NCBI GenBank assembly: GCA_947311495.1
Contig: CAMZLG010000052.1
Location: forward strand, 1 to 38,547
Reading direction: 5' to 3'
From: an uncultured Zetaproteobacteria bacterium
GTDB lineage: Bacteria > Pseudomonadota > Zetaproteobacteria > Mariprofundales > Mariprofundaceae
DNA length: 38,547 bases
A program made the translations under genes and the position numbers. Shown one piece after another: positions 25,403-31,443 of this stretch (positions are counted from its first letter, which is position 1; every line of letters begins with the position of its first letter). The notes under the pieces are model-generated. The model saw nothing but the letters and a program-made list of their open reading frames with translations, did not search any database and had not been told where the DNA came from.

Positions 25403-25544
25403 GTTGTGAATCATATTTGTATAAAACCACTACAAATTGTGTCTTGCTTAGTTTTTAACCACAAGATATGGTATCGCACAGTTTGGCGCTGCATGAAAGA
25501 AAATTCATTTAAAATTCATGTTAAGCGCAAGGGGAGTGCATTTT

Positions 25545-27704
25545 ATGAGCCAGGTTCAGCCGAAAAAACCACAGCCAGTCAGTCTGGATTCAGGCGTGGG
25601 TATTAATGATGTTACATTGCAACCAGCCAGCGAAGATATTTGGGACAAAAAGTATCGATTAAAGGACAAGAATGGCAACGCAGTGGATGCCAATGTTGCC
25701 GACACCTACAAACGTGTGGCAAAAGCATTGTCTGATGTGGAAGACGAAGACAAGCGCGAGTTTTGGAGCAATCGCTTTACATGGGCATTAGCCAATGGCG
25801 CAATTCCAGCAGGTCGAATTATGTCTAATGCAGGAGCGGAAGCGCACAAACCTGCAACATCAACCATCAACTGCACAGTCTCTGGCGTGATTCCCGATTC
25901 CATGGATGGCATTTTGTCTATGGTCAAAGAAGCGGGTTTAACCCTGAAAGCTGGCTGTGGCATTGGTTATGAATTCTCCACACTTCGTCCTAAAGGTGCG
26001 TATGTTTCTGGTGCAGGCGCATACACTTCGGGTCCGTTATCGTTTATGGATATTTATGATAAAATGTGTTTCACCGTATCCTCGGCGGGTGGTCGCCGTG
26101 GCGCACAAATGGGCACATTCGATATTTCTCACCCAGACGTGACCGACTTTATCAAAGCCAAACGTGAAGATGGTCGTTTGCGCCAATTCAACTTATCTTG
26201 CCTGATTACCCGTGATTTTATGCAAGCCGTCAAAGATGATGCAGATTGGGATTTGGTGTTTCCAGCAACCAAAGATGAGCTTGCAAATGATGATATGCGC
26301 ATCATCTTCAAACAAGTTGCCAACCCACCTGAAAAAGCCAAGAAAGATGACCGTGGTTTAACCGCTTGTCGTGTTTATAAAACCATCAAAGCGCGCCGTT
26401 TGTGGGATGTGATTATGTCATCCACTTATGATTATGCGGAGCCTGGTTTTATCTTGATTGATGAAGTCAACGACCTCAATAATAACTGGTTCTGCGAAGA
26501 TATTCGCGCCACCAACCCATGTGGTGAGCAGCCTTTGCCGCCGTATGGTGCATGTTTATTGGGCTCGGTAAACCTCACCAAATTTGTACGCGAGCCATTC
26601 ACTGAAAATGCCTATTTTGATTGGGATATGTACCGTGAAGTGGTGTCTGTGTTCACCCGCATGTTGGATAATGTGGTAGACATCAATGGTTTGCCTTTGG
26701 AGCAACAACGCCAAGCGATTTTGGATAAACGCCGTCATGGCATGGGTTTCTTGGGTCTTGGTTCAACCTTGACCATGCTGCGCACCAAGTATGGTTCTGA
26801 AGCATCATTGGAGTTCACAGAAAAAGTTGCGTATGAAATGGCAAAAACTGGTTTTGATGTGGGTCTGCAATTGGCAGAAGAAAAAGGTGCAGCACCCATT
26901 ATGGAGCAAGACTTTGAAGTGACAGCGGACATGTTGTTTAAACGCCCTGCGATGGCAAAAGATGGCATCAAAGTTGGCGATAAAATCAAAGGCAAAGTGC
27001 TTTGGGCTAAATATTCCAATTATATGCAGAAGTTTAAAGATTCGGGCGACCAAGAATTGTTGGATGCTTTGATTGAGAAAGGGAGCCGCTTTACCCATCA
27101 TTCTTCCATTGCACCCACAGGCACGATTTCATTGTCATTGGCGAACAATGCATCCAATGGCATTGAACCATCCTTTGCCCATCATTATGCGCGCAATGTG
27201 ATTCGCGAGGGCAAAAAATCCAAAGAGAAAGTTGATGTTTTCTCTTATGAATTATTGGCTTATCGTGAAATGGTTAACGCTGATGCTATGCCGTTTAGCA
27301 CTGAAGATGCAACCAAGTTGCCTGAGTATTTCATCTCGGCTGATGCGGTCACACCAACCCAGCACGTGGACATTCAAGCCGCAGCACAAGTTTGGGTAGA
27401 TTCGTCCATCTCCAAAACTGCCAATGTGCCCACCGATTTCCCATACGAAGATTTTAAAAATATTTATATGTATGCCTTTGATAAGGGTCTTAAAGGTTGC
27501 ACCACTTTCCGCTTTAACCCTGAAGTGTTCCAAGGTGTGTTGGTTAAAGAAGAAGATTTGGAAAACACCACCTACAAATTCACCTTGGATGATGGCACGG
27601 TGGTGGAAGCCAAAGGTAATGAAGAAATCGAATATGATGGTGAAATGCACACAGCAGCTAATCTGTTCGATGCACTGAAAGAAGGGTATTACGGAAAATT
27701 CTAG
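25545..27704 (+). CDS. nrdJ: adenosylcobalamin-dependent (class II) ribonucleotide reductase, catalytic part (NrdJa-like)
   Basis: INCTVSGVIPDSMDGIL, LKAGCGIGYEFSTLRP, RATNPCGEQPLPPYGACLLGSVNL, THHSSIAPTGTISLSLANNASNGIEP; start ATG 25545 with upstream GGGGAG. Confidence 0.92.
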   Translation: MSQVQPKKPQPVSLDSGVGINDVTLQPASEDIWDKKYRLKDKNGNAVDANVADTYKRVAKALSDVEDEDKREFWSNRFTWALANGAIPAGRIMSNAGAEAHKPATSTINCTVSGVIPDSMDGILSMVKEAGLTLKAGCGIGYEFSTLRPKGAYVSGAGAYTSGPLSFMDIYDKMCFTVSSAGGRRGAQMGTFDISHPDVTDFIKAKREDGRLRQFNLSCLITRDFMQAVKDDADWDLVFPATKDELANDDMRIIFKQVANPPEKAKKDDRGLTACRVYKTIKARRLWDVIMSSTYDYAEPGFILIDEVNDLNNNWFCEDIRATNPCGEQPLPPYGACLLGSVNLTKFVREPFTENAYFDWDMYREVVSVFTRMLDNVVDINGLPLEQQRQAILDKRRHGMGFLGLGSTLTMLRTKYGSEASLEFTEKVAYEMAKTGFDVGLQLAEEKGAAPIMEQDFEVTADMLFKRPAMAKDGIKVGDKIKGKVLWAKYSNYMQKFKDSGDQELLDALIEKGSRFTHHSSIAPTGTISLSLANNASNGIEPSFAHHYARNVIREGKKSKEKVDVFSYELLAYREMVNADAMPFSTEDATKLPEYFISADAVTPTQHVDIQAAAQVWVDSSISKTANVPTDFPYEDFKNIYMYAFDKGLKGCTTFRFNPEVFQGVLVKEEDLENTTYKFTLDDGTVVEAKGNEEIEYDGEMHTAANLFDALKEGYYGKF

Positions 27705-27734
27705 TGCAACATGCATTGAGAAGTAATATCAAAT

Positions 27735-27933
27735 GGGCGGAGCTTCAGTTTCCGCCAATCAATCTGTGGGTGATGGCATCCTTGTCTTATGACATGCCAT
27801 CAGAAGGGGCAACCGCCCACATTCACCGGAGGCAACGCCCGGGGTTGGATGCAGTTCGTCGTGATACGAATAGCAGAAGACCAAACGCGCTGCATAAATT
27901 ACACCGCAGGTTAGAATCATTGTTAGCCGTGCG
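27735..27933 (+). ncRNA. candidate structured RNA / ORF-less mobile-RNA insertion (HEARO / IscB omega-RNA-like?)
   Basis: Hairpins: GGCGGA 27736-27741 / TCCGCC 27751-27756; GTGGG 27766-27770 / CCCAC 27816-27820 enclosing TGATGGCAT 27771-27779 / ATGCCATCA 27794-27802; GGC-AAC-GCC 27831-27839; ATGCAG 27849-27854 / CTGCAT 27890-27895 enclosing TTCGT 27855-27859 / ACGAA 27866-27870. HEARO naming is from memory. Boundaries approximate. Confidence 0.55.
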
Positions 27934-27945
27934 TGGAGGAAAAGT

Positions 27946-28587
27946 ATGAGCATCAAAATCGAAAGTAAAATCACTGCCTATGAAGTGGCAAAACCTGAAG
28001 ATGAAGCAGCCAAAAAAGAAAGTAATGTGGCATCCATTGCACCATTGCTTGAGCGTGATGAAGTGCTTGTGGGTAGCACCTACAAAATTAAAACACCGCA
28101 TTCAGAACATGCCATGTATATCACCATCAATGATGTGATTGTGAACCAAGGTGAAGCAAACGAACATCGCCGCCCATTTGAGATTTTCATCAACACCAAA
28201 AACATGGAACATTTCATGTGGATTGTGACGTTAACCCGTATTATATCTGCAATTTTCCGTAAAGGTGGCGACATTACATTCTTGGTGGAAGAGCTCAAAG
28301 CCGTGTTCGACCCAAGAGGTGGTTACTACAAAAAAGGTGGCAAATATATGCCATCTATCGTGGCTGAAATCGGCGAAGTTATCCAAAAACATCTTGTGTC
28401 CATTGGCATGATGGAAGGGCAGCTGCAAACTGAAGAATTGATTGCCAAGCGCATTGAAGCCGAAGAAAAGTTAGGTAAAGATGGTGTTGCCAACGCATCA
28501 CAATGCGATAAATGCAGCGCGATGGCTGTCGTAAGGCTTGATAACTGTAATTGTTGTTTAGAGTGCGGCGACAGTAAGTGTGGGTAA
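27946..28587 (+). CDS. NrdJb-like small protein of split class II ribonucleotide reductase (TSCPD-type, Cys-rich C-terminus)
   Basis: MEHFMWIVTLTRIISAIFRKGGDITFLVEELKAVFDPRGGYYKKGGKYMPSIVAEIGEVIQKHL; C-terminal CDKCSAMAVVRLDNCNCCLECGDSKCG; follows nrdJa; GGAGG upstream of ATG. Confidence 0.85.
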   Translation: MSIKIESKITAYEVAKPEDEAAKKESNVASIAPLLERDEVLVGSTYKIKTPHSEHAMYITINDVIVNQGEANEHRRPFEIFINTKNMEHFMWIVTLTRIISAIFRKGGDITFLVEELKAVFDPRGGYYKKGGKYMPSIVAEIGEVIQKHLVSIGMMEGQLQTEELIAKRIEAEEKLGKDGVANASQCDKCSAMAVVRLDNCNCCLECGDSKCG

Positions 28588-28640: not shown

Positions 28641-28674
28641 AAGGCTGTTATTCATTAGAATAACAGCCTTTTTT
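28641..28674 (+). terminator. intrinsic terminator after nrdJb
   Basis: aaGGCTGTTATTC-atta-GAATAACAGCC-TTTTTT: 11-bp perfect stem plus U-tract. Confidence 0.92.
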
Positions 28675-28865: not shown

Positions 28866-29108
28866 TTAATGGGTTAGCCAGTTTTGCATCAAAGCTTTGA
28901 TTTTGGTTTGATATTTGATGCCTTCGAGTTCGCTTTTTTGTTTGAATGAGGCAAGCATAGGTTCAGGCACTTTAAGGCTGATAAGCTTGCTGCGCTTGGG
29001 TGTTTCCTGCATTCGGCGAAAAGATTCTAGGAACTCTAGCGTTTGTTCAGTTGTCATGCCTTTGCAGCGTTCTAAGTATTCATCACTAAAGTATTGAACA
29101 GGTCTCAT
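28866..29108 (-). CDS. BrnA/CopG-like (ribbon-helix-helix-type) putative antitoxin
   Basis: 80 aa; C-terminal SKLISLKVPEPMLASFKQKSELEGIKYQTKIKALMQNWL resembles the RHH segment of BrnA/CopG-type antitoxins; ATGA overlap with the upstream NTase gene. Confidence 0.6.
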   Translation of the reverse strand: MRPVQYFSDEYLERCKGMTTEQTLEFLESFRRMQETPKRSKLISLKVPEPMLASFKQKSELEGIKYQTKIKALMQNWLTH

Positions 29109-29566
29109 TGTAGCCTCTCAAGAGCTTTGATATCTTCTAAATCCTGCGGTCTGCCTGATTTTTGTTTCATATTGATTAAGTCTTCAATGGCAAGCACTTG
29201 AATATCCATACCAAACCCTTGTTTGGTGACAGTGTTCATGTTGTTTAAGTTTTCAGTGATAATAATATCGACCATTTCGGCAGGGTTATTTGGATTCACA
29301 AATGACCATGCAATCATATTTCGGTTGTTGATGTACTCATCACGAAAATGAAAGACTTCACTGGCTTTGACAGGCAAACGAGGTTGTAAGCCTATGTTTA
29401 TTAAAGCTTGTTCGGCATGTAAAAAGGCTTGTTCATCCACTTGGATAACCAAATCAATATCCATTGTGCCTCGGAATGCACCATGCAGCGCAACAGCATA
29501 ACCACCCACAATAGCGTATTTTACGTTATGTACTGTTAATGATTGAATAAGCTTTTGAATAAACAT
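29105..29566 (-). CDS. nucleotidyltransferase-fold protein (MNT / AbiEii-like)
   Basis: VKYAIVGGYAVALHGAFRGTMDIDLVIQVDEQAF (GG...A-H-G...DxD) NTase core; 153 aa. Confidence 0.75.
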   Translation of the reverse strand: MFIQKLIQSLTVHNVKYAIVGGYAVALHGAFRGTMDIDLVIQVDEQAFLHAEQALINIGLQPRLPVKASEVFHFRDEYINNRNMIAWSFVNPNNPAEMVDIIITENLNNMNTVTKQGFGMDIQVLAIEDLINMKQKSGRPQDLEDIKALERLQ

Positions 29567-30019: not shown

Positions 30020-30340
30020 ATGCAACTCACCCAGCTTTTTAAGGGGTTATCCGACCCTGTACGCCTTCGCATTTTTCATGTGTTGGCGAAAAAGGGTGAG
30101 CTTTGTGTCTGTCATTTGACGGATGGGCTAGTGTTGCCACAAAGCACCGTTTCCCGCCACCTCAATACCTTAAAACACGCAGGTTTGGTGCAATCGGAGC
30201 GCCGAGCCAAATGGGTGTATTATATGTTGAATGAAGAAAATGACATGGTAAAAGTGTTGGCATCATTGGTGTGTACGCAGTCTGAACATGACCCTCAATT
30301 ACAAAAAGACTTGAAAAATATCCAGATAACCACCTGTTGA
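30020..30340 (+). CDS. arsR: ArsR-family transcriptional repressor
   Basis: LFKGLSDPVRLRIFHVLAKKGELCVCHLTDGLVLPQSTVSRHLNTLKHAGLVQSERRAKWVYYML; ELCVCHL metal-binding motif. Confidence 0.93.
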   Translation: MQLTQLFKGLSDPVRLRIFHVLAKKGELCVCHLTDGLVLPQSTVSRHLNTLKHAGLVQSERRAKWVYYMLNEENDMVKVLASLVCTQSEHDPQLQKDLKNIQITTC

Positions 30341-30363
30341 TTTACATATCCGAATAAGCAGAT

Positions 30364-31443
30364 ATGATGCAGCCTCAAAAGGATATCTTGGGGTTGATGA
30401 TGACATTATTGAATACATTTTCTATGGGTTTGTTTGCCCGCTATTTAACGCTTTGGGTTTTGCTAAGTATTATCGTCGGCATTGCTCTGGGCGCATGGTT
30501 CCCCTATGTTTTCCAATGGTTGGGTCATGTTGAAATTTACCATATTAACCTTCCCGTAGCCTTTCTGATTTGGGCGATGATTCTACCCATGTTGCTTAAA
30601 ATTGATTATTCCTCCCTGCATGAAGTGATGAAGCATCGCAGAGGTATAGGCGTGACCTTGGCGATTAACTGGCTGGTAAAACCATTCTCCATGGCATTTT
30701 TGGGTTGGTTATGCTTGGAACACTTTTTTGCGCCATACCTTGAAGCGGATAAAATACCTGAATATATCGCGGGTTTAATCCTTTTGGCTGCAGCACCTTG
30801 CACAGCCATGGTGTTTGTCTGGTCCAAACTGGTGAATGGTCATCCTCATTTTACACTCACACAGGTGGCTTTAAATGATGTGATTATGGTGGTGGCATTT
30901 GCACCTATTGTGGGTTTGCTGATGGGCGTGGCATCCATCGCTGTACCTTGGGATACGCTGATGTTATCGGTGGTGTTGTATATCGTGATTCCTGTTGTGT
31001 TTGCCTATGTCTTGCGTGCGGTTTTATTAAAGAGAGATATGTTGGACGAAACACTTGAATTGCTAGACCCTGTATCTATGTCAGCCTTGTTGGTGACGGT
31101 TGTGCTTCTATTTGCTTTTCAAGGTCAACAAATTATCGCACAACCCTTGGTTATTCTTTTGCTCGCCATCCCCATTATCATTCAAGTTTATTTTAATTCC
31201 GCACTGGCATATTGGCTCAATCGTAGGCTAAAGGTAGCACATTGTGTGGCAGGACCATCGGCATTGATAGGTGCATCCAACTTCTTTGAATTGGCAGTTG
31301 CCGCCGCCATTGCCTTGTTTGGTTTTGAATCGGGTGCAGCCTTGGCAACCGTTGTTGGCGTGTTGGTTGAAGTGCCTGTGATGTTAACGGTTGTGGCGAT
31401 TGTAAATCGAAGTAAAGGTTGGTACGAAAGGGGTTTATCATGA
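30364..31443 (+). CDS. ACR3-family arsenite efflux transporter
   Basis: 10-TM protein; GVTLAINWLVKPFSMAFLGWL, AAAPCTAMVFVWSKLVNGHPHFTLTQVALND, GASNFFELAVAAAI. Confidence 0.94.
   Translation: MMQPQKDILGLMMTLLNTFSMGLFARYLTLWVLLSIIVGIALGAWFPYVFQWLGHVEIYHINLPVAFLIWAMILPMLLKIDYSSLHEVMKHRRGIGVTLAINWLVKPFSMAFLGWLCLEHFFAPYLEADKIPEYIAGLILLAAAPCTAMVFVWSKLVNGHPHFTLTQVALNDVIMVVAFAPIVGLLMGVASIAVPWDTLMLSVVLYIVIPVVFAYVLRAVLLKRDMLDETLELLDPVSMSALLVTVVLLFAFQGQQIIAQPLVILLLAIPIIIQVYFNSALAYWLNRRLKVAHCVAGPSALIGASNFFELAVAAAIALFGFESGAALATVVGVLVEVPVMLTVVAIVNRSKGWYERGLS

Follow-up and report, generated by a model that had tools for sequence, protein, structure and literature searches.

A small open reading frame and an overlapping, covarying RNA fold between nrdJa and nrdJb in Mariprofundaceae

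In Pseudomonas aeruginosa, nrdJa is followed by nrdJb, adjacent and on the same strand (PMC4520616). Split nrdJ was previously reported in a few zeta-proteobacteria, and the available text of the same paper mentions no gene between the two (PMC4520616). The locus described here has the same gene order and strand but carries a small open reading frame (ORF) and a structured RNA between nrdJa and nrdJb.

Overlapping stop and start codons (ATGA, TAATG) provide translational coupling, and structured cis-regulatory RNAs occur within bacterial coding sequences or between cistrons. The small ORF overlaps its neighbors at either end, as in coupled genes; here, however, the coupling cistron bears a conserved, covarying RNA structure. 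Like cis-regulatory mRNA structures, the RNA is built of conserved, covarying helices, but it is absent from Rfam 15 and has strong matches at Mariprofundaceae nrdJ only. HEARO RNA (Rfam RF02033) or IscB omega-RNA is also structured and of roughly similar size; in contrast, the present RNA matches no such model, is immobile, overlaps a conserved ORF, and has no IscB found with it. Neither the peptide nor the RNA had a match in the searched libraries of protein and RNA families. The interval is probably a small, translationally coupled gene that carries a conserved cis-acting RNA fold in its codons.

Layout of the nrdJ locus

The window, the whole stretch of DNA analyzed, comprises 38,547 nucleotides of contig CAMZLG010000052.1 from an uncultured bacterium of the Mariprofundaceae, within the iron-oxidizing Zetaproteobacteria. 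Features of the nrdJ locus are as follows.

25518–27704, + strand: nrdJa, catalytic subunit of a split class II (AdoCbl-dependent) ribonucleotide reductase (TIGR02504, E 8.9e-169; PF02867, E 3.8e-125)
27704–27949, + strand: small ORF of 81 codons (open frame; profile and tblastn matches in relatives)
27935–27939, + strand: GGAGG, Shine-Dalgarno sequence of nrdJb (read in the letters)
27946–28587, + strand: nrdJb, second subunit, with TSCPD domain and C-terminal cysteines (PF12637, E 6.9e-10; relatives)
28641–28670, + strand: intrinsic terminator at the operon end (13-bp stem, then a T-run)

With nrdJa ending at 27704 and nrdJb starting at 27946, the 241-nt gap given in the preliminary description of this DNA is real. 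A putative GTG start at 27704 overlaps the nrdJa TAG, and the TGA stop of the small ORF, ending at 27949, overlaps the nrdJb ATG in ATGA. The nrdJb GGAGG falls within the last small-ORF codons (RGGK) and is near-universal among relatives. The three genes likely form one polycistronic mRNA.

Most relatives have a small-ORF start that overlaps the nrdJa stop (TAATG/TAGTG, position -1) or lies at an ATG at -14 behind AAGAAGG, and a stop that shares ATGA with the nrdJb start. Mariprofundus small-ORF starts are often further downstream. At the nrdJa end (window 27690–27704 and relatives), the Tyr/Gly codons read TATGG in most genomes with the ATG at -14 and TACGG where the small ORF starts at -1, L037 being an exception; silent nrdJa codon choice goes with the start position of the small ORF.

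Downstream of the operon, a gene for a CopG-antitoxin-like protein overlaps a DUF6036 nucleotidyltransferase gene (28866–29566, - strand), possibly as a toxin-antitoxin pair. Genes for an ArsR-family regulator and, behind it, an SBF-family transporter resembling an arsenite exporter lie at 30020–31443 (+ strand).

Coding evidence and distribution of the small ORF

The preliminary description took the gap to be non-coding, a reading it set against protein coding in the interval. A single open frame spans the entire gap and, by comparison among relatives, is conserved as protein, so the non-coding claim fails. Its conserved core begins at 27728 and carries the motif WxELRFPPINLWVM, in which W, FPP and NLW are invariant or almost so. 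All 12 Ghiorsea-type core sequences keep the frame open, and each of the remaining five frames has at least one stop in all 12. Core lengths in these close relatives differ only by multiples of 3. Differences per codon position are 707/397/1138, highest at the third, with a pN/pS of 0.35 (12 close relatives). These patterns indicate that the open frame is maintained by selection. The peptide is small and basic, and its middle part is poorly conserved. AlphaFold gave no confident fold (mean pLDDT 59), with a C-terminal helix likely.

Searches of the small ORF against Pfam, NCBIfam, PHROGs and PDB sequences returned no known family, an rpo132 match lying under its cut-off. Phage or plasmid origin was rejected, no match being found among phages or plasmids. 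A 785-aa open frame in G025 suggested a fusion to NrdJa and was also rejected; it is an overlapping frame, and the NrdJa end is normal.

A small-ORF profile matched 50 of 78 Zetaproteobacteria genomes in 10 of 18 genera at E ≤0.01, a count that takes in weak and short matches and a sample in which many genomes are incomplete MAGs. Named carriers include Ghiorsea, Mariprofundus and other Zetaproteobacteria, among them the isolate M. ferrooxydans PV-1, whose locus is L079. The ORF lies between nrdJa and nrdJb at 30/30 loci inspected, as at all strong matches examined, and relatives found by tblastn have the same flanking genes. No small-ORF match was obtained by tblastn in sampled Proteobacteria outside its own family. 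The W, FPP and NLW residues recur in L112, from another family of the order. In further genera, the ORFs bearing the N-terminal motif are all short, and a second small ORF sometimes follows.

A second small-ORF type is located directly before nrdJb in other Zetaproteobacteria (L020, L017, L022, L028, L023, L160, L163 and L164). It has a weak motif, xRMxxLFRDFY, at low identity, and stands alone or 3′ of the FPPINLW ORF. Extra palindromic or repeat-like segments occur in the 5′ part of the gap in L003, L007, L015, L018, L021, L079 and L083. Examples are ACCACGAAG...CTTCGTGGT and a GGCGACAC..GTGTCGC block; such segments precede or interrupt the small ORF, and some leave its frame open.

The RNA within the small-ORF codons

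A covariance model, R1, describes a conserved structured RNA within the small ORF. Its parts in the window are as follows.

27763–27892, + strand: conserved structured RNA, match to R1 (97.1 bits, E 2.0e-19)
27765–27771, + strand: helix P1, 5′ strand, UGUGGGU (alignment)
27815–27821, + strand: helix P1, 3′ strand, GCCCACA (alignment)
27826–27829, + strand: CCGG, 5′ strand of a possible helix S1 (invariant, 28/28 sequences)
27833–27838, + strand: helix P2, 5′ strand, CAACGC, CARCGY in relatives (alignment; held-out C-G to U-A)
27839–27842, + strand: CCGG, 3′ strand of the possible helix S1 (alignment)
27843–27846, + strand: helix P3, 5′ strand, GGUU (covariation)
27879–27882, + strand: helix P3, 3′ strand, GACC (covariation)
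27887–27892, + strand: helix P2, 3′ strand, GCGCUG (alignment)

Alignment of 28 distinct sequences gave P1 as UGUGGGU/RCCCRCA and P2 as CARCGY/RCGCUG around P3, together with CCGG/CCGG. The CCGG pairing would make a possible pseudoknot with P2. In Ghiorsea, P3 is either GGUU/AACC or GGUC/GACC; L013 has GAUC/GGUC, and Mariprofundus has GCAUG/CAUGC. An extension of P1, termed P1b, shows good pairing in Mariprofundus only.

All five modelled P3 pairs covary. On the flanking-gene tree, P3 has 7 pairing-preserving double substitutions, where a matched null gives 0.76 ± 0.95 (0/5000); the same test on P1b alone was not significant (332/5000). Over the whole structure, 93% of cells pair, and 38 cells are double-changed versus 16.9 ± 3.2 when shuffled. 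The initial drawing of the structure, made by eye, used sequences that were later counted, an overlap mitigated by a slide test (covariation score 0.186; slid versions reach 0.081 at most), a window scan (P3 ranks first among 4166 possible 5-bp windows) and a held-out test. In the held-out genome, G160, which is outside the model, 18/18 pairs form, including new compensated pairs; its changes are C-G to U-A in P2 and a C-G at the P1 end. The CCGG of the possible S1 is identical in each of the 28 sequences. Along with P1 and most of P2, which barely vary, S1 is supported by constraint more than by covariation. Folded alone, the gap in the window reached -77.6 kcal/mol (z -1.85), slightly better than chance, and 10/200 shuffles folded equally well.

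Within the same genomes, synonymous differences are 0.32 in the small-ORF core and 0.57 in nrdJa and nrdJb. Within the core, pS is 0.07 in helix-strand codons and 0.43 elsewhere. In the flanking genes, 0/152 windows of 18 codons have a pS under 0.37. Four genomes that lack the RNA (L075–L078) have a core pS of 0.54, similar to the neighboring genes. The RNA is thus conserved, as judged by covariation and reduced synonymous change.

Of the 78 genomes of the class, 33 contain an R1 match, in nearly every case a single strong one located at nrdJ; strong matches are limited to nrdJ loci of the family Mariprofundaceae. One marginal match was obtained outside the family among 399 genomes of the phylum. 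A weak second match off nrdJ (G078:C1:1490871-1490972, E 0.008) is probably due to chance.

The two layers separate in several lineages. The N-terminal coding part is swapped for other sequence in L018, L021 and L167, and the frame is broken in L013, all with the RNA core retained. L075–L078 have lost the RNA middle and retain the N- and C-terminal peptide with altered codons, e.g., TTA for CTG in two. The broken-ORF lineages and the reduced synonymous change show that the RNA is conserved independently of the reading frame. Several relatives, L019 and L029–L031, have neither layer and gaps of 1–43 nt. Neither layer is therefore essential for the enzyme.

A structured RNA between the two genes, as first proposed, is real and backed by covariation, in a structure that differs from the one named. 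The four stems named are all present in the letters but are not all conserved in 12 close relatives. GTGGG/CCCAC is kept in 12/12 and is the core of P1. The 9-bp hairpin is present here, but in half of the 12 its two middle pairs do not form. ATGCAG/CTGCAT and TTCGT/ACGAA are not conserved, the stretch holding both being deleted in several close relatives.

Candidate functions of the interval

An ORF-less HEARO or omega-RNA of IscB/IsrB, acting in trans with an IscB encoded elsewhere, was suggested initially from a resemblance in motifs; the presence of a structured RNA, about 130 nt long and ending before an ATGA, agrees with it. This identity is already contradicted and has almost no probability left. 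No Rfam match was obtained in the window at gathering scores, and nothing relevant over the interval at E ≤5 and E ≤10. Seven related loci gave only tRNAs and low-scoring chance matches at E ≤1, with HEARO absent. The HEARO model had no match in the genome, and the IscB N-terminal RRXRR family (PF14239) had none in this 88% complete genome, both searches being weak because no control genome gave a match. The ATGA arises where the stop of one gene overlaps the start of the next, and the interval codes for protein. The interval is also single copy in its own genome and fixed at one locus across genera, which counts against a dispersed or mobile insertion. A core pattern was present no more than once per genome in 41 genomes, always at nrdJ apart from one unrelated match in another family. 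A dispersed repeat was rejected on the same single-copy result.

If the protein alone mattered, low synonymous change would reflect codon bias or recent ancestry. WxxLRFPPINLW is indeed the most widespread feature and occurs also in genera without the RNA. However, low pS is confined to helix codons and has no comparable window in either flanking gene, P3 covaries, and the RNA survives a broken frame; this explanation is largely contradicted and very unlikely. The converse, that the RNA alone matters and the ORF is an incidental coupling bridge bringing ribosomes to nrdJb with a functionless peptide, draws on the poorly conserved peptide middle, the poor predicted fold, the C-terminal RGGK that is the Shine-Dalgarno sequence and the broken ORFs of several lineages. 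It is quite unlikely, as the N-terminal W, FPP and NLW stay fixed despite changed codons in RNA-less lineages and are seen again in a different family of the order. A riboswitch for adenosylcobalamin, a nucleotide or the like, controlling nrdJb or the operon's 3′ portion, is quite unlikely as well. The RNA is compact, with near-invariant single-stranded and helical blocks and a possible pseudoknot, adjoins the gene of a B12-dependent enzyme and is retained even with a broken ORF, but it sits between the genes for two subunits of a single enzyme and not in a leader, no Rfam cobalamin model matches, and terminators in the region are no commoner than chance. A self-contained fold within a likely polycistronic message would also suit a site that governs processing or stability of the transcript, or a small RNA cut out of it to act in trans; promoters are no commoner than chance in the scanned region, and this role is distinctly improbable.

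Most likely, an intercistronic cis-acting RNA and a coupled small protein set nrdJb translation, a function that we infer. The overlaps at both ends, the nrdJb site in the last codons and the upstream fold argue for cis control of nrdJb translation. Ribosomes finishing nrdJa would enter the small ORF and exit at ATGA onto nrdJb. The proposed fold, a P1 arm followed by P2 enclosing P3 with a possible CCGG/CCGG knot, ends about 43 nt before the ribosome-binding site of nrdJb and would tune NrdJb relative to NrdJa, possibly by keeping that site clear of long-range pairing. The peptide may itself act on the enzyme. Against a reading with both layers, a translating ribosome would unfold the RNA.

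In most Ghiorsea, the predicted openness of the nrdJb site is about 0.7, versus 0.35 when the upstream sequence is shuffled; Mariprofundus has no clear excess over shuffled, and openness is therefore a weak lead. Sequestration of the site by UUUCCGCC, drawn from alifold, was rejected as the main role because its middle pair is mismatched in relatives and the site is predicted to be more open in most Ghiorsea.

NrdJa and NrdJb of P. aeruginosa act 1:1 and are both required, from which balanced output is expected to matter, giving a reason for tuning (in the available text of PMC4520616). The effect on NrdJa:NrdJb stoichiometry that was first suggested is plausible. A bolder and unlikely version is that an undescribed pseudoknotted regulatory RNA, possibly ligand-sensing, in the codons of a lineage-specific, coupled micro-gene controls subunit balance of the reductase, with the peptide maybe a third component.

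Ribonucleotide reductase subunit balance is important to every cell, and at this split nrdJ junction the same codons serve a small protein as well as an RNA fold. Natural lineages have lost one layer and kept the other, and simple silent and missense mutations should therefore separate what the peptide, the coupling and the RNA each contribute.
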